NCBI RefSeq assembly: GCF_013305725.1
Contig: NZ_CP047883.1
Coordinates: 661,001-725,000, forward strand
Length of the DNA stretch: 64,000 nt
Direction: 5' to 3'
Source of the DNA: Streptococcus mitis
GTDB taxonomy: Bacteria; Bacillota; Bacilli; Lactobacillales; Streptococcaceae
The position numbers and the translations under genes are program-made. Positions 3,921 through 59,443 of this stretch are shown here, piece after piece; the first letter of the stretch is position 1, and every line of letters begins with the position of its first letter. The notes below the pieces were generated by a model. That model worked only from the letters and a program-made list of their open reading frames with translations. It did not search any database and was not told where the DNA came from.

Positions 3921-4880
3921 ATGAGTCAAAAGATTATTGGGATTGACCTTGGTGGAACTTCTATCAAATTTGCAATCTTGACAACAGCAGGAGAGATCCA
4001 AGAAAAATGGTCTATCAAGACCAACATTTTGGATGAGGGAAGTCATATCGTAGATGATATGATTGAGTCTATTCAACATCGTTTGGACTTGCTTGGATTG
4101 GCAGCAGCAGACTTCCAAGGTATTGGAATGGGATCACCTGGTGTGGTTGACCGTGAAAAAGGAACTGTTATTGGTGCCTACAACCTCAACTGGAAAACCC
4201 TTCAACCAATCAAAGAAAAGATTGAAAAAGCCTTGGGCATTCCTTTCTTCATCGATAATGATGCCAACGTAGCTGCTCTTGGTGAGCGCTGGATGGGTGC
4301 TGGAGATAACCAACCAGACGTTGTCTTTATGACACTCGGTACTGGTGTTGGTGGCGGTATCGTTGCAGAAGGCAAATTGCTTCACGGTGTTGCTGGTGCA
4401 GCAGGTGAGCTTGGCCACATCACTGTTGACTTTGACCAACCAATCGCATGTACCTGTGGTAAGAAAGGCTGTCTTGAGACAGTCGCTTCTGCAACAGGGA
4501 TTGTCAACTTGACTCGTCGCTATGCCGATGAATACGAAGGCGATGCAGCCTTGAAACGCTTGATCGACGACGGTGAAGAAGTAACTGCTAAAACTGTTTT
4601 TGACTTGGCAAAAGAAGGAGACGACCTTGCCTTGATCGTTTACCGTAACTTCTCACGTTACTTGGGAATCGCTTGTGCTAACATCGGATCAATCCTAAAC
4701 CCATCAACCATCGTCATCGGTGGTGGTGTGTCAGCTGCAGGAGAATTCCTTCTACAAGGTGTTCAAAAGGTTTACGACGAAAATACCTTCCCACAAGTAC
4801 GCACATCTACTAAATTAGCTCTTGCAACTCTAGGAAATGACGCTGGGGTTATTGGAGCAGCATCACTTGTATTGCAATAA
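3921..4880 (+). CDS. gki: glucokinase (ROK family)
   Basis: 319 residues. It phosphorylates glucose with ATP in the cytoplasm, feeding sugar from non-PTS uptake and from disaccharide hydrolysis into glycolysis. Seen: the N-terminal phosphate-binding IGIDLGGTSIKFA, the sugar site around DNDANVAALGE, the second ATP loop LGTGVGGGIV, the EXGH-type GELGHIT, and the ROK zinc motif CTCGKKGCLE. Length and motif order fit streptococcal glucokinase. It has a good AAGGAGAAG ribosome site, its own promoter upstream and a hairpin terminator downstream, so it is a single-gene unit. Its neighbour bgaA would release glucose that this enzyme can use. Confidence 0.95.
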   Translation: MSQKIIGIDLGGTSIKFAILTTAGEIQEKWSIKTNILDEGSHIVDDMIESIQHRLDLLGLAAADFQGIGMGSPGVVDREKGTVIGAYNLNWKTLQPIKEKIEKALGIPFFIDNDANVAALGERWMGAGDNQPDVVFMTLGTGVGGGIVAEGKLLHGVAGAAGELGHITVDFDQPIACTCGKKGCLETVASATGIVNLTRRYADEYEGDAALKRLIDDGEEVTAKTVFDLAKEGDDLALIVYRNFSRYLGIACANIGSILNPSTIVIGGGVSAAGEFLLQGVQKVYDENTFPQVRTSTKLALATLGNDAGVIGAASLVLQ

Positions 4881-4887
4881 AATAATA

Positions 4888-4939
4888 AAAGGAGAAAAAC
4901 ACTATTTTACAGCGAGTGATTTTCCTCCTTTCTTTTTTT
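4888..4939 (+). terminator. terminator after gki
   Basis: AAAGGAG and CACT pair with AGTG and CTCCTTT in an interrupted stem, followed by a run of T at 4932-4939. Confidence 0.65.
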
Positions 4940-4940
4940 A

Positions 4941-4949
4941 TGCTATACT
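4941..4949 (+). promoter_or_regulatory. thyA extended -10 promoter
   Basis: TGC followed by TATACT (4944-4949), 28 bases before the thyA ATG. Confidence 0.5.
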
Positions 4950-4977
4950 AGTTAGGAAATAAATGAGGTGAGAGTAA

Positions 4978-5817
4978 ATGACAAAAGCAGATACGATTTT
5001 TAAAGAGAATATTGAACGAATCCTCAAAGACGGTGTCTTTTCTGAGCAGGCCCGTCCCAAGTACAAGGATGGGACTGTTGCCAACTCCAAGTATGTAACG
5101 GGTGCATTTGCCGAGTATGACTTGGCAAAGGGGGAATTCCCCATCACAACCTTGCGTCCTATTGCCATCAAATCCGCCATCAAGGAAGTCCTTTGGATTT
5201 ACCAAGACCAGTCAAATAGACTAGACGTGCTCAATGACAAGTACAATGTTCACTACTGGAATGACTGGGAAGTGGGAGATACGGGAACCATCGGTGAGCG
5301 CTATGGTGCCGTTGTTAAGAAACACGATATCATCAATAAGATTCTCAAGCAGTTGGAAGCCAACCCTTGGAACCGCCGCAATATCATTTCGCTCTGGGAT
5401 TACCAAGCTTTCGAAGAAACAGATGGGCTGCTCCCATGCGCTTTTCAGACCATGTTTGATGTCCGCCGTGTAGATGGGGAGATCTATCTGGATGCGACCT
5501 TGACCCAGCGTTCTAACGATATGCTGGTGGCCCACCACATCAATGCTATGCAGTATGTGGCTCTTCAAATGATGATTGCCAAACATTTCGGCTGGAAGGT
5601 TGGGAAGTTCTTCTACTTCATCAACAATCTCCATATCTATGACAATCAATTTGAACAAGCTCAGGAATTGCTCCGTCGTGAGCCATCAAACTGCCAACCA
5701 CGTTTGGTCTTGAATGTGCCAGATAAGACCAATTTTTTTGATATTAAAGCAGAGGACTTTGAGTTGGTGGATTATGACCCTGTCAAGCCACAGTTGAAGT
5801 TTGACCTAGCTATTTAA
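4978..5817 (+). CDS. thyA: thymidylate synthase
   Basis: 279 residues. It methylates dUMP to dTMP using methylenetetrahydrofolate. The catalytic cysteine lies in [10 protein letters not shown] and the dUMP-binding arginines in [19 protein letters not shown] and the folate-proximal [13 protein letters not shown] segment are also present, and the C-terminal FDLAI is the usual closing end. Length fits the short ThyA form of streptococci. It is a single gene between the gki terminator and a bidirectional terminator. The start has a GAGGTGAGAG ribosome site. Confidence 0.97.
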
Positions 5818-48384: not shown

Positions 48385-49451
48385 AAAAACTCTATTCATT
48401 TTTAGCAGGAATTGTAGCCATTATCCTCGTCTTGTGGGGAATTGCGACGCATTTAGATAGTAAAATCAATAGCCGAGATAGTCAAAAACTGGTTATCTAC
48501 AACTGGGGGGACTATATAGATCCTGAACTCTTGACTCAGTTCACAGAAGAAACAGGAATCCAAGTCCAGTACGAGACTTTTGACTCCAATGAAGCCATGT
48601 ATACCAAGATCAAGCAGGGTGGAACGACCTACGATATTGCCATTCCTAGTGAATACATGATTAACAAGATGAAGGACGAAGACCTCTTGGTACCGCTTGA
48701 TTATTCAAAACTTGAAGGTCTTGAAAATATCGGACCAGAGTTTCTCAACCAGTCCTTTGACCCAGGCAATAAATTCTCTATCCCTTACTTCTGGGGAACC
48801 TTAGGAATTGTCTACAATGAAACCATGGTAGATGAGGCTCCTGAGCATTGGGACGACCTCTGGAAACCAGAGTATAAGAACTCTATCATGCTCTTTGATG
48901 GGGCGCGTGAGGTATTGGGACTGGGTCTCAACTCCCTCGGCTACAGCCTCAACTCCAAGGATACCCAGCAGTTGGAAGAAACAGTGGACAAGCTCTATAA
49001 ATTGACTCCAAATATCAAGGCCATCGTTGCCGACGAGATGAAGGGTTACATGATTCAGAATAACGCTGCTATCGGAGTGACCTTCTCTGGTGAAGCCAGC
49101 CAAATGCTAGAAAAAAATGAAAACCTACGCTATGTGGTACCGACTGAGGCCAGCAACCTTTGGTTTGACAATATGGTCATTCCAAAAACCGTGAAAAACC
49201 AAGATGCCGCCTATGCCTTTATCAATTTTATGTTGAAACCTGAAAATGCTCTCAAAAATGCAGAGTATGTCGGCTATTCAACTCCAAACCTACCAGCTAA
49301 GGAACTGCTCCCAGAGGAGAAAAAAGAAGACAAGGCCTTCTATCCAGATGCTGAAACCATGAAACACCTAGAAGTTTACGAGAAATTTAACCATAAATGG
49401 ACAGGCAAATACAGCGACCTCTTCCTACAGTTTAAAATGTATCGGAAGTAG
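48381..49451 (+). CDS. potD: spermidine/putrescine-binding protein PotD
   Basis: 356 residues. Binding-protein features are LVIYNWGDYIDPELL near residue 37, FDSNEAMYTKIKQGGTTYDIAIPSEYM, IPYFWGTLGIVYNE and LWFDNMVIPKTVKN, all of the PotD/PotF family. The N-terminus is a hydrophobic helix (residues about 4-26) without a lipobox Cys, so it is anchored by the uncleaved helix or released, not lipid-modified. Last gene of the pot operon. Confidence 0.95.
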   Translation: MKKLYSFLAGIVAIILVLWGIATHLDSKINSRDSQKLVIYNWGDYIDPELLTQFTEETGIQVQYETFDSNEAMYTKIKQGGTTYDIAIPSEYMINKMKDEDLLVPLDYSKLEGLENIGPEFLNQSFDPGNKFSIPYFWGTLGIVYNETMVDEAPEHWDDLWKPEYKNSIMLFDGAREVLGLGLNSLGYSLNSKDTQQLEETVDKLYKLTPNIKAIVADEMKGYMIQNNAAIGVTFSGEASQMLEKNENLRYVVPTEASNLWFDNMVIPKTVKNQDAAYAFINFMLKPENALKNAEYVGYSTPNLPAKELLPEEKKEDKAFYPDAETMKHLEVYEKFNHKWTGKYSDLFLQFKMYRK

Positions 49452-49466
49452 GAGCTAAACGGATGA

Positions 49467-49497
49467 AAACGAATCAGTCAGCTGGTTCGTTTTTTAG
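49467..49497 (+). terminator. terminator of the pot operon
   Basis: AACGAATCAG pairs with CTGGTTCGTT (one G-U) around TCAG, followed by TTTTT. It separates the pot genes from the accessory methyltransferase operon. Confidence 0.8.
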
Positions 49498-49512
49498 AAA
49501 AAATAGAAATCA

Positions 49513-49521
49513 TGGTATAAT
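49513..49521 (+). promoter_or_regulatory. extended -10 promoter of the methyltransferase-helicase-nuclease operon
   Basis: TGG followed by TATAAT (49516-49521). No good -35, as is common with extended -10 sites in this group. It predicts RNA start near 49528, about 60 bases before the leader ORF. Confidence 0.6.
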
Positions 49522-49590
49522 AGTTTTAGGGTGAGAGTTATTAGTATTGTTTACAGCATCTCTGAAAATTTAATTCCAAAGGAGTTCAAA

Positions 49591-49722
49591 ATGAGTCAGA
49601 CTACGCAAATGCATATATATATATATATATATAACCTAATAAAAAAATGCAAAAAATATAGATTGAAACCTACTGAAAATCCAGTAGGCTTTTTGCGTTT
49701 CTTGGAGGTATCTAATGGCTAA
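49591..49722 (+). CDS. leader peptide with (AT)10 tract, before the methyltransferase
   Basis: 43 codons from the ATG at 49591, with AAAGGAG seven bases upstream. It opens MSQTTQMH, then alternating Ile-Tyr residues encoded by the AT microsatellite, a basic stretch (NLIKKCKKYRLK) and PTENPVGFLRFLEVSNG. The last codons pass through a terminator-like hairpin, and the TAA (49720-49722) overlaps the methyltransferase ATG at 49715. I find no similarity to a known protein from memory. Layout suggests a regulatory leader, not a functional protein. Confidence 0.5.
   Translation: MSQTTQMHIYIYIYNLIKKCKKYRLKPTENPVGFLRFLEVSNG
49613..49632 (+). repeat. (AT)10 dinucleotide microsatellite
   Basis: Ten perfect AT units inside the leader ORF. 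Shortening by one unit makes the codons after the tract end at TAA at once. Lengthening by one unit gives TAA three codons later at most. Only changes by three units keep the leader open. Confidence 0.95.
49649..49699 (+). terminator. terminator-like attenuator hairpin inside the leader ORF
   Basis: CCTACTG (49669-49675) pairs with CAGTAGG (49682-49688) and is followed by CTTTTTGCGTTT. An outer pairing, GCAAAAA (49649-49655) with TTTTTGC (49690-49696), can extend the stem or compete with the T-tract. Located 16 bases before the methyltransferase ribosome site. Confidence 0.5.
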
Positions 49723-52507
49723 AAAGTTATTAAATATCACTGAGATTGAGGATAGAACCAAGGTTTTAGTAGAGAATCTTAATAAATCGACATTCATTAT
49801 TGATTTTGTTTCATTGTTTGACATTACTAAAACGACCATAACAAGAGCAAGTAAAGTGGCATCTGATGATTTTATAATAAAAAACAGATTGTATTTTCGT
49901 AAAGTTGAAAATCAGCCATTACTTGCTCTGACTGAGATTGATAAAGAGTTGGATGGTCAGGTTCGTAAATCTCGATTTATTATTACAACAGATTTTCAAG
50001 AATTATATGCAAAGGATACACAGACAGGACTGACTCTAGCAATTTCTTTTAATGATTTACCAGCCCATTGTGATTTCTTCTTACCTTGGAATGGTATTGA
50101 AAAGATTGATTATGATAAGGAAAACCCTGCTGATGTAAAAGCGGCAGAGCGTTTCACCAAACTTTATGATGAACTAATTTCTATCAATCCTGAACTTGCC
50201 ATTACTGAAACTGACGGTAAATCATTTAATCTATTTTTGATTCGTGTTCTTTTTCTACTATTTGCAGAAGATACAAATATCATCTCCAAGGGAGCTTTCA
50301 CAAATGTTATTAAGATGAGGACATCTGAAGATGGTTCTGACTTGAATGAGTGTGTTAGAAAACTATTTACTGTTTTAGATATGCCTGAATTTAGTCGTCA
50401 GGATTTGGAGTCGTGGTTATCAGATTTTCCCTATGTAAATGGTAAGCTTTTTTCAGAGCCACATCATGACCTTATTTTCAATAAAAGAACTCGTCAATTA
50501 CTCATTGAAGCAGGGGAATTGCTAAACTGGAATGAAATCAATCCAGATATTTTGGGCTCCATGATTCAAACCGTGGCAAATGCAGAAGCAAGATCAACAT
50601 CGGGTATGCACTATACTAGCGTGCCCAATATTATGAAGGTCATCAAACCACTGTTTTTAGATAATTTACGAGCAGCATTTACGGAATTAGAAGAACGAGC
50701 TGACTACTATATAGGAGGTGGTGACTTTAGCGAGGAACATCGTCGCAAGGAATTGCGACAAATCTTACCTAAGTTAGAAGAGTTGCTCACTCGTATGGCC
50801 TCTATCAAGTTTTTAGACCCTGCTTGTGGTTCTGGAAATTTCCTCATCATTACTTATAAAGAACTTCGTCGTTTAGAAATTAATATCTTAATCAAACAGC
50901 GTGAAATTCGTGAATCCTTAAATGAAAAAGCTGTTTATCAAGGAGAATTGATTGCTGATGCATCTAAGATTTCTCTATCCCAATTTTCAGGAATTGAATT
51001 GGATGATTTCGCTCATGAAGTAGCAAGGTTATCCTTGTATATAGCGGAACACCAGATGAATGTGGAGATGGAAGAAGCACTTGCTGATGTCCATCCAAGG
51101 CTACTCCCCTTAAGAGAAGCTGGGAATATCGTTTGTGGGAATGCCCTAAGAATTGACTGGACAACTGTTTTGAATGCTAAGGCAGATGATGAAGTTTATA
51201 TATTTGGGAATCCGCCGTATATAGGCTCTAAAAAAATGACCTTGGAACAAAAGAAGGAACTAGAAAATGTGATTTGTTCAGAAATTTCTTCTAAAAAATT
51301 AGATTATATTTCGGGATGGTTTTATAAGGCAACTCACCTTATTTATGGTAAAAATGCTCAATATGCTTTTGTAACAACAAATTCAATAAATCAAGGTGAG
51401 CAAGTTTCAATTTTGTGGAGTGTTCTTCTACAATATGGCCAAATTTCCTTTGCATATCAATCGTTTAAATGGAATAATAGCGCGGCCCATAATGCAGGGG
51501 TTACAGTTACTATCATTGGATTTTCAAATAAAAATGATAAGAAAAGAATTATATATAGTGATAAGGGAGAGAGTTATGGAAAGAATATAAATCCCTATCT
51601 AGCTTTTGCAGATGATATTATTGTATCTAATCACAATGATTCAGAGAAGTTAAATAATTTTCCAAAAATAGTCTTTGGGAATATGCCAAGAAGTAAATAT
51701 CTAATACTGACAAATGATGATAAAAATCAATTAGTTCAAAGATATCCTGAAACTGAAGTGTATTTTAAAAAGTATATTGGAGCAGATGAGTATATCAATG
51801 GAAATTTTAGATATACTATTTGGATTGATCAAGATGAATATACTAAATTAGATAAGATCCAGGAATTCCATCAATTATTTGAAAATGTAAGGCAAGAACG
51901 CCTGAATTCTAAGGCTGCTGGAACAAGAGAAACTGCATCCACACCATGGAAATTTGTTCAACGTGGTGAATGGGATGATATGTTTTCTAAGGGGAAAATA
52001 GAAGGGAAGTTTCAACTGTTAGTTCCTGCTGTTACTTCAGAAGATAGAGATTATATACCAATGGGATTTGTGGGAGACGATACAATTATTTCAAATCGTT
52101 GCTATATTGTGTATGATACTCCAATTTGGCTACTTGGATGTCTTGTTTCTAAAATGCATATAAAATGGTTTCAAGCGATCGGTGGGAAATTAGAAACTCG
52201 ATATAGTTATTCAGCTGGACTGGTTTATAATACATTCCCAATCCCAGAACTTTCAGATAGTCGGAAAAATATGCTTGAAGAAGCTGTTTTTGAAATGCTA
52301 GATGTTCGAGAAGAAGAAGGTGGAACCTTGGCTGAATTGTACGGTGGAGCCAATAAACCGATGAACGAACGTCTTCGTCAAGCACATGAAAAAATTGATG
52401 GTATCGTAGAACGTGCCTACCAGCAAAAGCCTTTTGAATCAGATGAAGAAAGGCTCAGTGTCTTATTGAACCTGTATAAAGAAATGACAGAAAAGGAAGC
52501 GAAATGA
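49715..52507 (+). CDS. N6-adenine DNA methyltransferase, MmeI/YeeA-like
   Basis: 930 residues after ribosome site GGAGG. Residues about 1-330 form an N-terminal region with KSRFIITTDFQELYAKD and FNDLPAHCDFFLPW, resembling the start of MmeI-type enzymes. I see no D-x(9)-ExK nuclease motif there. SAM motif I is DPACGSGNF (368-376) and the catalytic motif NPPY is at 499-502. Residues about 520-800 are a less conserved block, the likely target-recognition domain (more AT-rich codons), followed by a C-terminal helical region. The architecture recalls Bacillus YeeA, whose partners YeeB and YeeC match the next two genes. It should methylate adenine in a specific site, protecting self DNA. It ends in an ATGA overlap with the helicase gene. 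Confidence 0.85.
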   Translation: MAKKLLNITEIEDRTKVLVENLNKSTFIIDFVSLFDITKTTITRASKVASDDFIIKNRLYFRKVENQPLLALTEIDKELDGQVRKSRFIITTDFQELYAKDTQTGLTLAISFNDLPAHCDFFLPWNGIEKIDYDKENPADVKAAERFTKLYDELISINPELAITETDGKSFNLFLIRVLFLLFAEDTNIISKGAFTNVIKMRTSEDGSDLNECVRKLFTVLDMPEFSRQDLESWLSDFPYVNGKLFSEPHHDLIFNKRTRQLLIEAGELLNWNEINPDILGSMIQTVANAEARSTSGMHYTSVPNIMKVIKPLFLDNLRAAFTELEERADYYIGGGDFSEEHRRKELRQILPKLEELLTRMASIKFLDPACGSGNFLIITYKELRRLEINILIKQREIRESLNEKAVYQGELIADASKISLSQFSGIELDDFAHEVARLSLYIAEHQMNVEMEEALADVHPRLLPLREAGNIVCGNALRIDWTTVLNAKADDEVYIFGNPPYIGSKKMTLEQKKELENVICSEISSKKLDYISGWFYKATHLIYGKNAQYAFVTTNSINQGEQVSILWSVLLQYGQISFAYQSFKWNNSAAHNAGVTVTIIGFSNKNDKKRIIYSDKGESYGKNINPYLAFADDIIVSNHNDSEKLNNFPKIVFGNMPRSKYLILTNDDKNQLVQRYPETEVYFKKYIGADEYINGNFRYTIWIDQDEYTKLDKIQEFHQLFENVRQERLNSKAAGTRETASTPWKFVQRGEWDDMFSKGKIEGKFQLLVPAVTSEDRDYIPMGFVGDDTIISNRCYIVYDTPIWLLGCLVSKMHIKWFQAIGGKLETRYSYSAGLVYNTFPIPELSDSRKNMLEEAVFEMLDVREEEGGTLAELYGGANKPMNERLRQAHEKIDGIVERAYQQKPFESDEERLSVLLNLYKEMTEKEAK

Positions 52508-54435
52508 CCTCAAATATATTTGAAATTAATTACAATGGTACAGGTGCTAGTCAATCAAATAATGCACTTGGTATGCGTGAAATGCAGGAGCGGGTATATG
52601 CTAAGAGAACTTCTCAACACTTATTGATTAAGGCGCCTCCTGCATCTGGTAAGTCGAGAGCTTTGATGTTTATTGCTCTTGATAAATTACATGCTCAAGG
52701 TCTGAAAAAAGCTATTATAGCTGTTCCAGAAAGATCTATTGGAAAATCGTTTCGTTCAACAAAATTGACAGATTATGGTTTTTACTGGGATTGGGAAGTT
52801 CTTCCCAAAAATAATTTGACTGAACAAGGGAGCAGTAAAAGTAAGGTAAAACAGTTTGTAGACTTTATGCATTCAGAGTCTCCTGATGATAGAGCTTTAA
52901 TCTGTACGCATGCCACCTTGCGTTTTGCCTTTGAACAGCTAGCTGATAGTGATTTTAATGATGTTCTTCTAGCTATCGATGAATTTCATCATGTATCTCA
53001 AGATGATAATTCAGTTTTAGGAAATGCCTTAAGAAACATATTAGCCAATTCAACAGCCCATGTAGTAGCTATGACAGGGTCTTATTTCCGTGGAGATTCT
53101 GTACCCATTTTGGCACCTGAAGATGAGCAAAAATTTGATAAGGTATCCTATACTTATTATGAACAGTTGGAGGGGTACAAATATCTGAAAAGTTTTGCCA
53201 TGGGTTATAACTTTTATCGTGGTCGTTACACAGATGCCTTGCACGAAGTACTGGACACGAGTAAGAAAACTATCATTCATATTCCCAATGTAAACTCAGG
53301 TGAATCAACCAAGGATAAGTATGATGAAGTTGACCGAATTTTAGATGAACTAGGGCAAGCAGTTCCAGATCCTAAGACTGGATTATGGTTAGTTACTGAG
53401 GAAACAGGTCGTGTATTGAAAGTTGCAGACCTTGTCATAGAAGAAGGACGTGAAAAAGTACAGGATTACCTAAACAAAATGACCAGTTTAGATGATCTCG
53501 ATATCATTATCGCACTTGGTATGGCTAAAGAAGGTTTTGACTGGCCTTATGCTGAGTATGCTTTGACGATTGGCTATCGTCAGTCGCTAACAGAAATTGT
53601 TCAGATTATAGGTCGAGTAACACGCGATAGTTCCAATAAGTCACACGCTCAATTTACCAATCTCATTTCTCAACCAGATGCTCAAGATGATGAAGTTTTC
53701 TTTGCTGTGAATAATGTTATGAAGGCCATTACAGCTAGTCTATTGATGGAGTCTGTTTTAGCGCCAAATTTCAAGTTCAAACGAAAAGACCGAGAAGACC
53801 AGAAATCTTCTGGTGCCGAAATATTCGTTAAAGGCTTAAAAGAGCCTAGTACACAGAGAACAAAGGATATCATAGAAAATGATTTGAATGACTTACGTGC
53901 TAGTATATTGCAAGAACCGCGTATCCAAACTGCAATTGCTGCGGGAACGGATGCAGAAGTCATTAATAAGCAGATGATTCCAGCCATCATTAAACAAATC
54001 TATCCTGACTTAAGTGGGGCTGAAGTTGAAGAAGTTCGTCAACAGTTTATTAGTCAATCGGTAGTTCAATCAGCTGAACGGAAAGAGGGAGTAGGGCAAA
54101 CAGACTTTCTAAAAATGGCAGATAAATTTGTGAATATTGATGAGTTATCTATTGATTTAATTGATCAGATTAATCCTTTCCAGAGAGCTTACGAAGTTAT
54201 ATCACGTGAAATTGATGCTCCGACTCTGCGTCTAATACAAGACTATATGGATGGTCAGAAGATGGAGTTTTCTGAAGAAGAACTGTTAATTCTTTATCCT
54301 CAAATTAAGCAATTTTTAAATGAAAATGGTCGTCATCCAGATAAATCAAGTCACGATAAGTACGAACAGAGACTTGCGTATGCTTTGTTACAATTGTCTC
54401 AGATGAAGCTGAAGATGGAGAGCGGTAATGAATGA
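52504..54435 (+). CDS. SF2 helicase of the methyltransferase operon, YeeB-like
   Basis: 643 residues. Motif I is APPASGKS (44-51, Lys50), with a Gln at 28 upstream that may act as Q-motif. Motif II is DEFH (159-162), motif III TGS (191-193, where many helicases have SAT). ALGMAKEGFDWP is motif V and QIIGRVTRD (367-375) motif VI. The C-terminal 250 residues are helical and of unknown fold. DExH proteins of this type move on DNA in restriction and defence systems. Four-base overlap upstream and 8-base overlap downstream make a fixed three-gene unit. ATP-driven search or translocation is inferred. Confidence 0.88.
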   Translation: MTSNIFEINYNGTGASQSNNALGMREMQERVYAKRTSQHLLIKAPPASGKSRALMFIALDKLHAQGLKKAIIAVPERSIGKSFRSTKLTDYGFYWDWEVLPKNNLTEQGSSKSKVKQFVDFMHSESPDDRALICTHATLRFAFEQLADSDFNDVLLAIDEFHHVSQDDNSVLGNALRNILANSTAHVVAMTGSYFRGDSVPILAPEDEQKFDKVSYTYYEQLEGYKYLKSFAMGYNFYRGRYTDALHEVLDTSKKTIIHIPNVNSGESTKDKYDEVDRILDELGQAVPDPKTGLWLVTEETGRVLKVADLVIEEGREKVQDYLNKMTSLDDLDIIIALGMAKEGFDWPYAEYALTIGYRQSLTEIVQIIGRVTRDSSNKSHAQFTNLISQPDAQDDEVFFAVNNVMKAITASLLMESVLAPNFKFKRKDREDQKSSGAEIFVKGLKEPSTQRTKDIIENDLNDLRASILQEPRIQTAIAAGTDAEVINKQMIPAIIKQIYPDLSGAEVEEVRQQFISQSVVQSAERKEGVGQTDFLKMADKFVNIDELSIDLIDQINPFQRAYEVISREIDAPTLRLIQDYMDGQKMEFSEEELLILYPQIKQFLNENGRHPDKSSHDKYEQRLAYALLQLSQMKLKMESGNE

Positions 54436-55573
54436 TTTCAAAAACTTAAATGACATTTTTAATGATTCTGATTTTGAACATTTAATAGCTCCTTTAAAAC
54501 CTATGAAAAAAATAGTTATAGATCACGAAGTGGAGAAATTTTTAGAAATCATAGATTGGGTGAGAGAAAATAATGGGCAAGAGCCACAAAAGTCTAGAAA
54601 TATTAAAGAACGCAGTTTATTTTCTCGATTGAATGGTATTAGAAAATCTCCTGATAGCATCCGAAAGTTAGAACCTTATGATGAATTTGGGCTACTAAAA
54701 ATAGATATAGTTGAGTCCGAGCCCCCTATTTCAAGTCCTGCTAGTTTAACAGATATTTTATCAGATGAATTGTTTGAGTCAGTGAATAGTGCTGAGAAAT
54801 CTTTATTTGATGTCTCACGTTATAAACGAACGATTCAAGCGCGGGATAAAACACGAACACGTAAACGGATGGGAAATTTTGAAGATTATCAGGGATTATT
54901 TACTCGTGTTCATGATGAAATTAGTGAAGGTCGTCGTCAAGTCAGAAAGTCTGATGTGATAAAAGAAAAAGAAATTAAACCTGATATGTTCTATGTGGAT
55001 AATGGAGTAATGGTTTATGTTGTTTCTAAAGGAGAAGACTTCACTGATAAGAATGGTTATACTAATGCTGAACTTCATCTCGTATATGAAAATGGTACAG
55101 AAAATAAGAAGGCCTTACTCCGCTCTTTTGTATCTAATCTGCACGATAGAACGCGCCATGGACGAATGGTAACAGAATTGATAGAAGATGTGATGACTGG
55201 TATCAGTCCAAGCGAACGAATTACAACTGGATATATCTATGTAGTAAAATCCTTGAGTAGCCATCCTCAAATTGCCAACATCCGTAATCTCTATAAAATC
55301 GGTTTTACACAGGATCGAATTGAAAAACGGTTAGCAAATGCAGAAAGAGAAGGAACCTATCTTTATGCTCCTGTCCGTTTAGTAGCTAGTTTTGAGGTTC
55401 AAAATTTCAGCGCTCGAAAATTAGAAACGACTCTTCATCATTATTTTGCAGACAAGCAGTTAGATATGGAATTAATAGCACCAAATGGAGAGAGCTTTGT
55501 CCCTAAAGAATGGTTTCTAGTATCGCTAGATGAGATCCAAGAAGTGATTGAAAAAGTTAGCTTAATGATCTAG
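54428..55573 (+). CDS. GIY-YIG (T5orf172) nuclease of the methyltransferase operon
   Basis: 381 residues. Residues about 265-375 are a T5orf172-type GIY-YIG domain: GYIYVVKS (268-275), YKIGFT (289-294), Arg301 or Arg297 in the next helix, and a catalytic-Glu candidate Glu333 in ARKLETTLHHYF, then EWF near the end. Residues 1-260 show no domain I know; they may bind the helicase or DNA. The start overlaps the helicase gene by 8 bases. It supplies the cutting activity missing from the methyltransferase. The order equals my recollection of Bacillus yeeA-yeeB-yeeC. The alternative is a DNA-binding, catalytically weak T5orf172 protein. Confidence 0.85.
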   Translation: MNDFKNLNDIFNDSDFEHLIAPLKPMKKIVIDHEVEKFLEIIDWVRENNGQEPQKSRNIKERSLFSRLNGIRKSPDSIRKLEPYDEFGLLKIDIVESEPPISSPASLTDILSDELFESVNSAEKSLFDVSRYKRTIQARDKTRTRKRMGNFEDYQGLFTRVHDEISEGRRQVRKSDVIKEKEIKPDMFYVDNGVMVYVVSKGEDFTDKNGYTNAELHLVYENGTENKKALLRSFVSNLHDRTRHGRMVTELIEDVMTGISPSERITTGYIYVVKSLSSHPQIANIRNLYKIGFTQDRIEKRLANAEREGTYLYAPVRLVASFEVQNFSARKLETTLHHYFADKQLDMELIAPNGESFVPKEWFLVSLDEIQEVIEKVSLMI

Positions 55574-55645
55574 TGGGATAAGGGAGTATTTTTCCCCCTT
55601 TGGATTTAAGAAAACACAAAACAGAAAGAAAAGGAATATACTAAC

Positions 55646-55951
55646 ATGGAAAACAATAATACAAATTATAAAATCTTTAAATTCTTGGGAATTGCTGTGG
55701 TGCTGTTTTATGCTTTTATCTTTATTGGTAGTAGTTTTTCTACTGCTGGGGTAAAAGATGCACCACAAATTGAGTATAAAAGCGACTATATGAACCAGAA
55801 AGTGGAACTGAAAGACGCTGAGGTATTGGGCAAGTTTTGGAATGATGAAGGGCACTATCTCGTAGTGTATGACGAAGACACAAAATCCCCAAAATTATTC
55901 AAGATAAGCTACTCTGAGTGGAATCTTATCAGTATAGGGGGTACATACTAA
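55646..55951 (+). CDS. small membrane-anchored protein of unknown function
   Basis: 101 residues behind an AAAGAAAAGGAATA ribosome region. Residues about 11-33 are one membrane helix (FKFLGIAVVLFYAFIFIG); the rest is an outside or cytoplasmic beta-rich domain (MNQKVELKDAEVLGKFW). I recognise no family. It follows the nuclease gene by 73 bases, so it may belong to the accessory insert or to the core locus before alaS. No toxin or immunity motif is seen. Confidence 0.6.
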   Translation: MENNNTNYKIFKFLGIAVVLFYAFIFIGSSFSTAGVKDAPQIEYKSDYMNQKVELKDAEVLGKFWNDEGHYLVVYDEDTKSPKLFKISYSEWNLISIGGTY

Positions 55952-56005
55952 ACAGCGCTGGAGGGCTATGCTAGATAGAAAGGTTTTAGAAATAAATTAA
56001 ATATT

Positions 56006-56040
56006 ACTACTTACATTTCGAAACTAGTAGTTAAATTTTT
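56006..56040 (+). terminator. weak terminator-like hairpin before the T-box
   Basis: ACTACT pairs with AGTAGT around a loop of about 14 bases, followed by TAAATTTTT. In 55952-56089 I see nothing else. Confidence 0.35.
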
Positions 56041-56089
56041 AAAAGGTCTTCACTCCTACCTCACTACTATTAGTTAAGATGATTTCCAG

Positions 56090-56118
56090 TTGACGCAAGC
56101 TTAAAAAAACGATATAAT
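56090..56118 (+). promoter_or_regulatory. promoter of the alaS operon
   Basis: TTGACG (56090-56095), 17 bases, TATAAT (56113-56118). Confidence 0.8.
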
Positions 56119-56125
56119 AAGAAAG

Positions 56126-56302
56126 TTGAGATTTGATTTTCAGTTGTCTTAGTCCAGAGAAATGGCGGTGCTGCGAGCCATCTAAGCTAGAAAGTCATGC
56201 TACTCAATCATACAATTGCATAAGAATAAGAGAATGACAAGTTCATTGAATGAAGGTGGTACCGCGGTTTTTCGCCCTTCGTGATATGAGCTTGTCTTTT
56301 AA
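56126..56302 (+). promoter_or_regulatory. T-box riboswitch (predicted alanine)
   Basis: AATGAAGGTGGTACCGCGG at about 56250-56268 is the T-box core that binds the end of uncharged tRNA. Upstream, 56150-56200 forms stem I. The terminator stem is GACAAGTTCAT (56236-56246) with ATGAGCTTGTC (56286-56296), followed by TTTTAATTTTT. It encloses the T-box, so antiterminator and terminator exclude each other. Alanine is inferred from alaS downstream; GCT triplets occur in stem I, but I do not fix the specifier. Confidence 0.9.
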
Positions 56303-56317
56303 TTTTTGGAGGTGTTG

Positions 56318-56803
56318 ATGAAAACATTTCTTGTCAAACAAAAGTTTCGTCTTGGAGGCGAACGCTTCGCTATCAAGGATGACAGGGGAGAAATCGCCTA
56401 TCAGGTGGAGGGATCATTTTTTAAGATTCCCAAAACTTTTACCATCTATGATGCGGCTGGTGAACAGGTCAGTCAGATTAGTAAAGAAATCTTGACCTTG
56501 CTCCCTCGTTTTGAGATTCAGCTTCAGGATGGCTCGAGTTTTGTCATTCGTAAGAAGTTGACCTTCTGGCGAGATAAGTATGAGTTTGATAATCTAGGTC
56601 TTCGTATCGAGGGCAATATCTGGGATTTGGATTTCAAATTGCTGGATGATCGCGATCAGCTGATTGCGGAAATTAAGAAGGACCTCTTCCATCTGACCTC
56701 TACCTATACCGTAACGGTTCTTGAGGACGCTTATGCAGACCTAGTCATTTCCCTCTGCGTCGCGATTGACTATGTGGAGATGCTGGAAAGCCAATCACAT
56801 TAA
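56318..56803 (+). CDS. LURP-one-related (LOR) family protein
   Basis: 161 residues from the ATG at 56318 after GGAGGTGTTG. The fold signature is a beta-barrel with FLVKQKFRLGGERFAIKDD near the start and GNIWDLDFKLLDDRDQLIAEIKK later, as in LOR/YxjI proteins related to Tubby and scramblases. The function is unknown. It lies between the T-box and alaS, 21 bases before alaS, so it is made when charged alanyl-tRNA is short. Confidence 0.85.
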   Translation: MKTFLVKQKFRLGGERFAIKDDRGEIAYQVEGSFFKIPKTFTIYDAAGEQVSQISKEILTLLPRFEIQLQDGSSFVIRKKLTFWRDKYEFDNLGLRIEGNIWDLDFKLLDDRDQLIAEIKKDLFHLTSTYTVTVLEDAYADLVISLCVAIDYVEMLESQSH

Positions 56804-56824
56804 ACAAGTAAATAAGGAGACAAT

Positions 56825-59443
56825 ATGAAACAACTATCTAGTGCACAAGTACGCCAAATGTGGCTTGATTTCTGGGCGACCAAAGGTCACTCAGTAGAAC
56901 CATCAGTGAGTTTGGTTCCTGTAAATGACCCAACTCTTTTGTGGATCAACTCTGGGGTAGCAACGCTTAAGAAATACTTTGATGGGACTATTATCCCAGA
57001 AAATCCACGTATTACCAATGCCCAAAAGGCCATCCGTACCAACGACATCGAAAACGTAGGGAAGACTGCACGTCACCATACCATGTTTGAAATGTTGGGG
57101 AACTTCTCTATCGGTGATTACTTCCGTGACGAAGCCATCACTTGGGCTTATGAGCTTTTGACAAGCCCAGAATGGTTTGACTTCCCAGCTGAGAAACTTT
57201 ACATGACCTACTATCCAGATGATAAAGATTCATACAACCGCTGGATTGAAGTGGGAGTGGATCCAAGTCACTTGATTCCAATCGAGGACAACTTTTGGGA
57301 AATCGGTGCGGGACCTTCTGGACCGGACACAGAGATTTTCTTTGACCGTGGAGAAGCTTTTGACCCAGAAAATATCGGTCTTCGCCTTCTTGCAGAAGAT
57401 ATCGAAAACGACCGTTATATCGAAATCTGGAACATCGTTTTGTCACAATTTAACGCAGACCCTTCCGTTCCTCGTAGCGAATACAAGGAATTGCCACACA
57501 AGAATATTGATACGGGCGCTGGTTTGGAGCGTTTGGTGGCCGTTATCCAAGGGGCTAAGACCAACTTTGAAACGGACCTCTTCATGCCGATCATCCGTGA
57601 AGTGGAGAAATTGTCTGGTAAGGTTTATGACCAAGATGGCGATAACATGAGCTTTAAGGTTATCGCTGACCACATCCGTTCACTTTCATTTGCTATCGGT
57701 GATGGTGCCCTTCCAGGAAATGAAGGTCGTGGTTATGTCCTTCGTCGTTTGCTCCGTCGTGCTTCTATGCATGGTCAAAAATTGGGTATCAACGAGCCTT
57801 TCCTTTACAAACTAGTTCCAACCGTTGGAAAAATCATGGAAAGCTACTACCCAGAAGTGCTTGAAAAACGTGACTTTATCGAAAAAATCGTTAAGAGCGA
57901 AGAAGAATCATTTGCCCGTACCCTTCACTCAGGTCAACACTTTGCCCAAGGCATTGTAGCTGACTTGAAAGAAAAAGGTCAATCTGTCATTGCTGGTTCA
58001 GATGTATTTAAACTTTACGACACTTATGGATTCCCAGTTGAATTGACTGAAGAAATCGCTGAAGAAGCTGGGATGACTGTAGACCGTGAAGGATTTGAAG
58101 CAGCCATGAAAGAACAGCAAGAACGCGCGCGTGCCTCAGCTGTCAAGGGTGGCTCAATGGGGATGCAAAATGAAACCCTTCAAAACATCACTGTAGAAAG
58201 TGTCTTCAACTACAATGCTAGCCAATTGCCTTCTAAGTTGGTGGCTATCGTAGCGGATAATGCAGAAGTAGAAGCTGTAGCAGAAGGAATTGCCTCTCTT
58301 ATCTTTGCAGAAACACCATTCTACGCTGAAATGGGTGGACAGGTCGCTGACCACGGACAAATCTTGGATGAGTCAGGTAAGGTCGTGGCTACTGTGACCA
58401 ATGTTCAAAAAGCACCAAACGGACAAGCACTTCACACGGTTGAAGTTCTTGCACCTCTTGCCTTGAACCAAGAATATACCTTGGCAATTGATACAAATCG
58501 TCGTCACCGTGTTATGAAAAACCACACTGCGACTCACTTGCTTCACGCTGCCCTTCATAATATCCTTGGAAACCATGCAACACAAGCAGGATCTCTTAAC
58601 GAAGTCGAATTCCTTCGCTTTGACTTTACTCATTTCCAAGCTGTGACTGCTGAAGAATTGCGTGCCATTGAACAGCAAGTCAACGAGAAAATCTGGGAAG
58701 CTCTTGAAGTTAAGACAGTTGAAACGGATATTGATACTGCTAAAGAAATGGGAGCTATGGCTCTCTTTGGTGAGAAATACGGCAAGGAAGTTCGTGTTGT
58801 TACTATCGGTGACTACTCTATCGAGCTTTGTGGTGGTACCCACGTTGGCAACACTTCTGAGATTGGACTCTTCAAGATTGTCAAAGAAGAAGGTATCGGA
58901 TCAGGAACTCGCCGTATTTTAGCAGTGACTGGTAAGGAAGCTTTTGAAGCCTACCGCGAACAAGAAGATGCTCTTAAAGCTGTCGCAGCAACCTTGAAAG
59001 CACCTCAAGTCAAGGAAGTACCTCACAAGGTGGAAGGACTCCAAGAACAACTTCGTCAACTTCAAAAAGAAAATGCTGAGTTGAAAGAAAAAGCCGCAGC
59101 AGCTGCCGCAGGTGATATCTTCAAGGATGTTAAGGAAGTCAACGGTCACCGTTACATTGCTAGTCAAGTGTCTGTATCAGATGCAGGTGCCCTTCGTACC
59201 TTTGCAGATAACTGGAAACAAAAAGACTACTCTGATGTGCTTGTCCTAGTTGCAGCTATTGGTGACAAGGTCAATGTCCTTGTCGCAAGCAAGACAAAAG
59301 ACCTTCATGCAGGAAACCTTGTCAAAGAATTGGCACCAATCGTCGATGGACGTGGTGGTGGTAAACCAGACATGGCCATGGCAGGAGGAAGCAACCAAGC
59401 TAAGATCCAAGAATTGTTGGATGCCGTAGCAGGTAAATTGTAA
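56825..59443 (+). CDS. alaS: alanyl-tRNA synthetase
   Basis: 872 residues. The class II catalytic core is at the N-terminus ([19 protein letters not shown]), followed by the tRNA-recognition region. The editing domain has [11 protein letters not shown] and the zinc-site ELCGGTHV. The C-terminal C-Ala domain ends in [19 protein letters not shown] glycine motifs (here [14 protein letters not shown]). It charges tRNA-Ala. It is second in a T-box-controlled operon. Full length for the family. Confidence 0.97.

Follow-up and report, generated by a model that had tools for sequence, protein, structure and literature searches.

A DnmA-YeeB-YeeC operon of Streptococcus mitis with an exchangeable recognition domain and a candidate repeat-controlled leader

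The DnmA-YeeB-YeeC (yeeABC) family is known from Bacillus subtilis, and judged by its gene types, gene order and strand, a resemblance that the initial annotation had already pointed out, the dnmA-yeeB-yeeC operon analysed here belongs to it. The operon lies in a 64,000-nucleotide stretch of the Streptococcus mitis contig NZ_CP047883.1, which as a whole is referred to as the window. According to the available part of PMC7261158, B. subtilis DnmA (YeeA) produces N6-methyladenine (m6A) at GACGAG, its loss alters gene expression, its deletion causes no growth defect and plasmid uptake is not limited by it; the same text relays the proposal of Morgan et al. (2009) that it forms a Type I-like restriction-modification (R-M) system with YeeB/YeeC. 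The accessible sections of PMC9973331 describe the cluster as conserved and three B. subtilis phages as unaffected by it, and cite a study in which deletions of dnmA and yeeB in Vibrio crassostreae raised the sensitivity to some phages. The initial annotation had expected little or no published characterisation; the family has in fact been treated in these two papers, and whether it restricts DNA is the matter on which the reports conflict.

The second described system that bears on this locus concerns expression. The pil1 and pil3 loci of Streptococcus gallolyticus carry a (GCAGA)n repeat in a leader open reading frame (ORF), and this repeat decides whether ribosomes reach a terminator; in pil1, a leader stop at least 28 nucleotides (nt) before the terminator goes with a heterogeneous, mostly low expression profile, and longer leaders with high expression (PMC3894217, available text). 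The three-protein modification and cutting system of the window is of a known kind. What looks new is that the short leader gene in front of it carries a slippery (AT)n repeat; this leader with its repeat and hairpin (49493-49722) is a feature beyond those of the initial annotation. No published repeat leader before dnmA/yeeA was found in the titles and abstracts among the matches listed from the open-licence literature. We consider it reasonably probable that the window carries a DnmA-YeeB-YeeC R-M system that follows Type I-like logic and whose expression is switched by phase variation.

The leader of dnmA and its AT repeat

The features of the leader and the operon are collected in Table 1.

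Table 1. Features of the dnmA-yeeB-yeeC locus (positions in the window)
Feature	Position	Strand	Description and basis
Promoter-like site	49493..49521	+	TTTAGA, 17 nt, TATAAT with TG before it (extended -10); 10/12 matches in consensus scan
Leader ORF	49591..49722	+	43 codons; ATG after AAAGGAG; runs through the hairpin and overlaps dnmA by 8 nt; sequence, translation, comparison
(AT)10 tract in leader ORF	49613..49632	+	n = 6 to 16 in relatives
Predicted intrinsic terminator hairpin	49669..49688	+	7 bp, -9.2 kcal/mol, followed by CTTTTTGCG at 49689-49697
dnmA	49715..52507	+	930 amino acids (aa); MmeI-type N6-adenine methyltransferase/specificity protein without PD-(D/E)xK motif
Exchangeable block of dnmA	51215..52264	+	residues ~501-850, includes the target recognition domain; identity per 50 residues
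yeeB	52504..54435	+	643 aa; superfamily 2 (SF2) ATPase/helicase, predicted translocase
yeeC	54428..55573	+	381 aa; helical N-terminal domain, SH3-like middle domain, C-terminal GIY-YIG (T5orf172) nuclease domain
GIY-YIG (T5orf172) domain of YeeC	55229..55558	+	residues 268-377; Pfam match, invariant residues
101-aa ORF on the same insert	55646..55951	+	relatives: 95% identity in L049, 92% in L050; 38-40% in L051, L109 and L219

The 2.09 Mb genome has two (AT)≥8 tracts. One of them, the (AT)10 tract, lies in a predicted leader ORF upstream of the first gene, as in attenuators of the pil1 type. Frame counting showed that the leader reads through into the dnmA start only when n mod 3 is 1; in the other two frames a stop codon lies 29 or 34 nt ahead of the hairpin. 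These distances, or the read-through, fall on the same two sides as those of the pil1 isolates. The TATAAT of the promoter-like site is kept in four aligned genomes, and the promoter scan taken alone was weak, with 28 sites in the region against 25.7 expected.

A DNA search with the leader region over 284 Streptococcus genomes matched 54, of which seven hold the leader proper. Six of these (one genome per species, the window included) have n = 10, 10, 16, 6, 8 and 15. The tract is their sole site of insertion or deletion: there is none in the 97 nt before it or the 90 nt after it, where 0-5 and 0-3 substitutions, respectively, were counted relative to the window. Within the 90-nt part, six differences fall at five positions and four of the six are synonymous in the long frame. 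The ribosome site, ATG, long frame and hairpin are kept in all six genomes, and from n the window, L219 and L051 are predicted to be ON and L109, L049 and L050 to be OFF. The seventh leader (L221, 77% identical) has a tract shortened to (AT)5 and a long open frame, and its hairpin has decayed to -0.4 kcal/mol; it thereby looks like a switch fixed ON.

Two other leaders were also found. That of another streptococcus (L054) is unrelated in sequence, carries (TTCC)5, is in an OFF frame as found, and among n = 2-8 tried reads through at n = 4 and 7 alone, while the leader of Streptococcus equinus (L053/L113) has no repeat and reads through. The stems of these two leaders and of the window type pair despite their differing sequence (-9.2 kcal/mol in the window, -10.8 and -8.8 kcal/mol in the other two), and the long frame of each of the three leaders ends on ATGGCTAA, the dnmA start. 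An upstream scan covered 86 loci with a dnmA N-terminus, namely the window and 85 others, in which L053/L113 and L065/L110 are the same contigs taken twice. Any repeat or terminator-like site upstream of dnmA was seen in 11 of the 86 loci, and the two together were called only in the window, L049, L050, L051 and L109; the L054 hairpin was hidden from the scan, its true ATG lying downstream of the TTG used. The confinement of repeat and terminator to few loci therefore suggests that the switch is a local addition to a widespread system.

In the proposed mechanism, transcripts would begin upstream of the leader ORF. When n mod 3 is 1, ribosomes would translate through the hairpin, block termination and end on the dnmA start (ON); at any other n they would stop at one of the two positions ahead of the hairpin, where most transcripts would end (OFF). 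Repeat slippage would in this way switch modification and restriction jointly. We infer termination and switching because of the combination of these features, the recurrence of the arrangement with a different repeat, and the tested parallel of pil1 and pil3.

The alternative is an ordinary DnmA-YeeB-YeeC R-M operon, constitutive or otherwise regulated, with the AT tract as a neutral microsatellite and no role for the leader ORF or the hairpin. Several results weigh against a switch and on the side of this explanation. AT tracts are common in streptococci, and 47 of the 54 matches to the leader query were short pieces, mostly of the AT tract. One open frame through such an AT-rich stretch arose in 407, 539 and 221 of 2000 shuffles of the three leaders (11-27%), terminator-like sites numbered 5 in the 7 kb scanned, where 3.5 were expected, and 75 of the 86 dnmA loci have neither a repeat nor a terminator-like site upstream. 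The window hairpin is modest, with a T5 tail that follows a C, and the value given for pil1 in the available text of PMC3894217 is -18.7. The L054 (TTCC) and L053 leaders were each found in 1 of 279 genomes, and (TTCC)5 is the single TTCC length observed. A neutral tract is nevertheless harder to reconcile with six genomes that keep the ribosome site, ATG, long frame and hairpin and vary in length in the tract only, with a second, unrelated leader that follows the same one-in-three logic with another repeat and another stem, and with a parallel proven in the same genus (PMC3894217, available text). We regard this alternative as possible but unlikely.

For the mitis-group-like streptococci, we lean somewhat towards a picture in which the whole Type I-like DnmA-YeeB-YeeC system would be randomly switched by slippage of a leader repeat that controls a premature terminator, exchange of the target recognition domain (TRD) would change the site, and the (TTCC)n leader suggests repeated origin. 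If the leader switch is real, repeat-controlled attenuation would extend from pili to DNA defence, and phage resistance, DNA uptake and m6A pattern would vary from cell to cell within a culture. A laboratory isolate could then be silently OFF, which would be a trap for phage tests, and the locus would be a candidate phasevarion of a kind missed by searches for repeats inside methyltransferase genes.

The other (AT)≥8 tract of the genome (C1:1044370-1044391, L227 2371-2392) lies about 50 nt 5' of the probable ATG of a gene for a bacterial sugar transferase (PF02397) and within a longer possible sugar-transferase ORF from a TTG at L227 2335; it is possibly a second repeat-controlled locus.

The three proteins and the exchange of the recognition domain

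The initial annotation had described three overlapping genes for an MmeI/YeeA-like adenine methyltransferase without a visible nuclease motif, a DExH helicase and a third protein with a T5orf172 GIY-YIG domain at its end, with modification, translocation and cleavage on separate chains. This description was upheld: the ORF coordinates give overlaps of 4 bases (dnmA/yeeB) and 8 bases (yeeB/yeeC), the domains fall on three ORFs, and the identities agree with Pfam, with MmeI (PDB 5hr4) and with an anchored motif test. The MmeI Pfam families named there all score over cut-off in DnmA, five in number (MmeI_N 77.5 bits, MmeI_Mtase 331 bits); the alignment with 5hr4 covers residues 86-926 (E 1.6e-154), and NPPY stands at residues 499-502. 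In PADLOC, the best match of DnmA is a Type IIG enzyme model, and YeeB and YeeC gave weak matches only.

For the nuclease motif, D-x(8-13)-[DE]-x-K was sought between residue 21 and the conserved 'TDF' block. This anchored motif was not found in the window DnmA, although the MmeI_N match is kept, and it was present in 10 of 69 scorable yeeBC-linked DnmAs against 17.6 expected from shuffles; 14 further linked DnmAs without the anchor were dropped. An MmeI_N protein of another genome (L228), taken as control, has D..IEQK. A looser pattern, D...[DE]xK within residues 1-160, was rejected, since the conserved spacer stretch NPAD[VI]K, among others, satisfies it; it matches 68/83 DnmAs (32/83 shuffled) and 115/115 long database homologues.

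YeeB matches DEAD/ResIII over the Pfam cut-off and helicase C below it, and the motifs DEFH and QIIGRVTRD are intact in the window copy. Its top Foldseek match is the Type ISP enzyme LlaBIII (E 7.8e-11), HsdR chains are among the top ten with EcoR124I HsdR close, and as a point against an R-M reading, general SF2 helicases score nearly as well as R-M enzymes. In YeeC, the T5orf172/MUG113 match falls inside residues 268-377. Residues K50 (Walker A), D159-E160-F161-H162, Q367, R371 and R374 show no variation in 30 YeeBs, and neither do Y271, K290, G292, R301, E333 and H337 in 61 YeeCs; the family as a whole therefore keeps its ATPase and nuclease sites.

In the AlphaFold model of YeeC (mean predicted local distance difference test 81.7, predicted template modelling score 0.38), a helical domain at ~33-84 is followed by a low-confidence linker, a partly SH3-like middle domain and the GIY-YIG domain. 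The N-terminal part of YeeC is a separate ORF of 92-97 aa at 9 of 15 streptococcal loci (the window and 14 fetched, two of which share one genome), and it is therefore seen as an independent module. The YeeC of Acinetobacter modestus (L125) is likewise split into ORFs of 95 and 318 aa, as in many streptococci.

Seven streptococcal copies in front of alaS (window, L219, L050, L051, L049, L109 and L221) were compared in blocks of 50 residues. DnmA residues ~501-850 are 16-76% identical per block to those of L219, L049, L109 and L221, and the rest of the protein 86-100%. The DnmA of L050 differs mainly at 751-850 (50 and 78% identity), and that of L051 shows no exchange. YeeB is 88-100% identical per block with one exception, the last block of L221 (63%), and YeeC is 84-100% identical, with 74-77% in some end blocks. 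The specificity part is thus exchanged and the translocase and nuclease parts are kept, a trait of the Type I style. Since the DnmA block is exchanged while YeeB and YeeC are nearly constant, site choice is placed in DnmA, and YeeB and YeeC would be a shared, Type I-like effector that serves several sites. One effector pair with several exchanged recognition domains argues for a working Type I-like machine, besides locating its specificity. In one streptococcus (L052:6054-8731), dnmA lies in two ORFs joined between the methyltransferase domain and the TRD, which is either a broken gene or a natural split into methyltransferase and specificity parts.

The specificity of each copy was read from the MmeI contact rules (PMC4833311, available text). 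In the window DnmA, A723/Q738 point to A:T at position 1, M645 to A:T at position 2 and E806/R808 to C:G at position 6; A751/N773 leave position 3 open and R774/S810 leave position 4 open. The predicted site is accordingly worded as 5'-AANNAC, with positions 1, 2 and 6 taken from the MmeI-family rules and the fifth-position A methylated. R751/D773 of L050 predict G at position 3, and R723/E738 with K806/D808 of L049 and L221 predict C at 1 and G at 6, so that four combinations of specificity residues occur in seven genomes. The exchanged blocks are 37-52% identical between the more distant pairs, and single predicted positions may be off.

We infer complex formation, translocation, cleavage and defence from these parts. 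DnmA would recognise a short asymmetric site through its TRD and methylate one adenine; at an unmethylated site it would recruit YeeB, which would translocate on DNA with ATP, and YeeC would cut through its GIY-YIG domain. With modification on one strand, cleavage would probably require two unmodified sites or colliding translocases, a requirement shared by Type III and ISP enzymes. An anti-phage role of the window copy is likely.

A different function follows if the R-M machinery is a relic and DnmA alone matters, as an epigenetic regulator; this is the view for B. subtilis, and phase variation, if real, would then make a phasevarion and not a defence. The B. subtilis results favour it and count against restriction by the window copy: loss of dnmA alters expression, and the same genes gave neither plasmid nor phage restriction, deletions leaving both plasmid uptake and phage susceptibility unchanged (PMC7261158, PMC9973331, as far as their available text goes). 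A relic would not be expected to show invariant YeeB and YeeC active sites in 30 and 61 homologues across phyla, nor effectors strongly conserved next to exchanged TRDs, and the Vibrio homologues do affect phage sensitivity (reported in the accessible part of PMC9973331). A homologue of the UzuA defence protein, moreover, occupies the same genomic slot in three other streptococci, and we find the relic explanation doubtful.

It is very improbable that YeeC recognises sites alone as a Type II-like nuclease with YeeB as accessory helicase, for although GIY-YIG domains occur in Type II restriction enzymes, YeeC stays nearly the same across exchanges of the DnmA recognition domain. The dnmA deletion in B. 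subtilis, moreover, had no growth defect (PMC7261158, available text), in contrast to the loss of a Type II methyltransferase in the presence of an active nuclease.

Insertion site and spread of the family

The dnmA-yeeB-yeeC operon forms an accessory insert with a pot-type transporter operon on one side and alaS on the other, as the initial annotation had placed it. The left flank holds the transporter operon (ABC transporter, two permeases and a solute-binding protein), and the right flank a T-box below threshold, a LURP-one gene and alaS. The T-box leader match (56119-56282) scored 46.5 bits against a gathering score of 93, and the insert ends just 5' of it; Rfam gave no match at gathering score within 49000-57000. 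Across the insert, the GC fraction drops from ~0.44 to 0.32-0.39. The 101-aa ORF on the insert was not found in L221 and had neither a Pfam match over cut-off nor a PADLOC match; it is probably not a core part of the system.

The accessory nature of the insert was also borne out by the same place in relatives. The loci were the 30 best places among the matches to the LURP-one gene, which was found in 79 of 98 Streptococcus genomes. The insert is present at 4 of these 30 (window, G001, G074 and G080). At 17, the end of potD lies <500 bp from the homologue of position ~56077, four of them being empty sites with <20 bp, and the remaining 9 carry other sequence; potD is kept in four of these 9, and in the other five no potD was seen within the fetched stretch. 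UzuA-type GIY-YIG proteins fill the potD-alaS slot in three streptococci (L100:9116-9940, L105:2881-3723 and L108:14369-15382), and in L101, which keeps potD, the slot holds a protein with an HTH_38 domain; the slot therefore receives varied defence genes. Two of the three UzuA-type proteins adjoin a PASTA-domain protein. Two genomes found through the leader (L219 and L109/L220) have the insert at the same potD-alaS site, and in L221 alaS is on the right as usual while the left side retains a potD remnant alone. The close relatives of the host include Streptococcus hohhotensis (L109), and database homologues are named S. mitis and Streptococcus pseudopneumoniae.

The family scan, with one genome per species, confirmed at least 558 relatives, of which the best 80 were retained. 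A YeeC homologue follows yeeB on the same strand in all 80 retained loci, and a dnmA ORF, sometimes fragmentary, precedes yeeB in 71. The order is yeeB-yeeC-dnmA in one locus, a Sulfurimonas metagenome-assembled genome (MAG; L134). The eight loci in which no dnmA was found all have <2.5 kb of sequence before yeeB; in five (L130, L132, L145, L167 and L169) YhcG, ORF6N, Fic, DUF4062 and AIPR genes stand directly before yeeB, and because another gene fills this short space, dnmA may lie past the contig end. Several of these five gene types are accessory genes of Type I R-M operons. The hosts comprise Firmicutes, Proteobacteria, Bacteroidota, Actinobacteria, Planctomycetes, a Chlamydiae MAG and an archaeal MAG. 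Within Streptococcus, the helicase was found in 14 of 197 genomes and a YeeC match in 16, two of them without the helicase.

YeeB relatives in 184 plasmid records indicate that the family is mobile. A phage- or plasmid-borne origin of the window copy was considered and set aside: YeeC matched none of 50,697 phage records, the leader was not matched in plasmids, and viral contigs held neither the leader nor the hairpin as an exact match. Of the BREX components, PADLOC gave no PglZ or BrxC in five further window proteins and weak PglX matches alone in the three operon proteins; of the DISARM components, DrmA and DrmB were not found among the eight window proteins scanned, and DnmA had a partial DrmMI match (113 bits).

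Variants of the operon were also seen. An extra ORF of ~240 aa lies between dnmA and yeeB at L054:10902-11627, L056:12979-13695, L058:9598-10341, L059:7466-8188 and L060:6794-7510; it matches the PADLOC candidate PDC-S32 (E 3e-32 to 6e-36) and points to a variant in which the system has a further component. In the C-terminal part of this ORF there is an R-x4-H pattern, which we take to be reminiscent of HEPN domains. In L061 a DUF6261 ORF stands between the same two genes. A 1733-aa DUF4011/AAA/MTES_1575 protein (L063:5138-10339) adjoins a lone ORF of the YeeC C-terminal GIY-YIG type (4564-5022), and this pair adjoins a gene family whose members are neighbours of dnmABC in L056, L057 and L060 as well, which may mark a second defence slot.

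Upstream of dnmA in L055, L058, L059 and L061, perfect palindromes of 12-16 bp flank a promoter -35-like core, with an identical 12-nt spacer, TCATTGACATTC, between the arms in L058, L059 and L061. The arms differ among the four loci yet remain palindromic, as if a cognate regulator co-varied. Autoregulation of dnmA through DnmA sites in these palindromes was rejected: inspected by eye, the arms of L059 and L061 lack the site predicted from the linked TRD.

Comparison with known systems

The streptococcal system shares with DnmA-YeeB-YeeC of B. subtilis the three protein types, their order and orientation, and an MmeI-like methyltransferase without nuclease motif. It differs in its repeat-bearing leader with hairpin and in its predicted site, AANNAC against GACGAG. 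According to the available text of Fernandez et al., B. subtilis YeeB and YeeC are without C-terminal stretches present in Vibrio. MmeI (Type IIL) resembles DnmA in all five MmeI Pfam domains and in the E-R pair for C:G at position 6; in contrast, the window DnmA is without the PD-(D/E)xK motif, and cleavage and translocation are on separate genes.

The Type ISP enzymes LlaBIII and LlaGI are similar in combining a gamma-class methyltransferase with an SF2 translocase, the latter giving the top structural match of YeeB, and probably also in methylating one strand. They carry nuclease, ATPase, methyltransferase and TRD on one chain, with a nuclease that is not of the GIY-YIG type, whereas here the functions are spread over three ORFs. 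Type I systems (HsdRMS) have in common with this operon the separate translocase and specificity parts and TRD exchange beside a conserved effector. Unlike them, the operon has one MmeI-type chain that holds both methyltransferase and TRD instead of a separate two-TRD HsdS, HsdM and HsdR set, its helicase and nuclease are on two chains, and its predicted site is short and asymmetric.

With regard to switching, the phase-variable Type IIG enzyme of Campylobacter jejuni (PMC4889913, available text) is comparable as a phase-variable methyltransferase of Type IIG-like kind; the streptococcal repeat, in contrast, is located in a leader ahead of the methyltransferase gene, and nuclease and helicase are encoded separately. 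The closest likeness of anatomy is to pil1 and pil3 of S. gallolyticus (PMC3894217, available text), which share a simple sequence repeat in a leader ORF, a stem-loop terminator and frame-dependent read-through (both predicted here), and similar distances from stop to hairpin. The present locus differs from them in serving an R-M operon and not pili, in its AT or TTCC repeats in place of GCAGA, in its weaker hairpin, and in a leader that ends on the start codon of the next gene.

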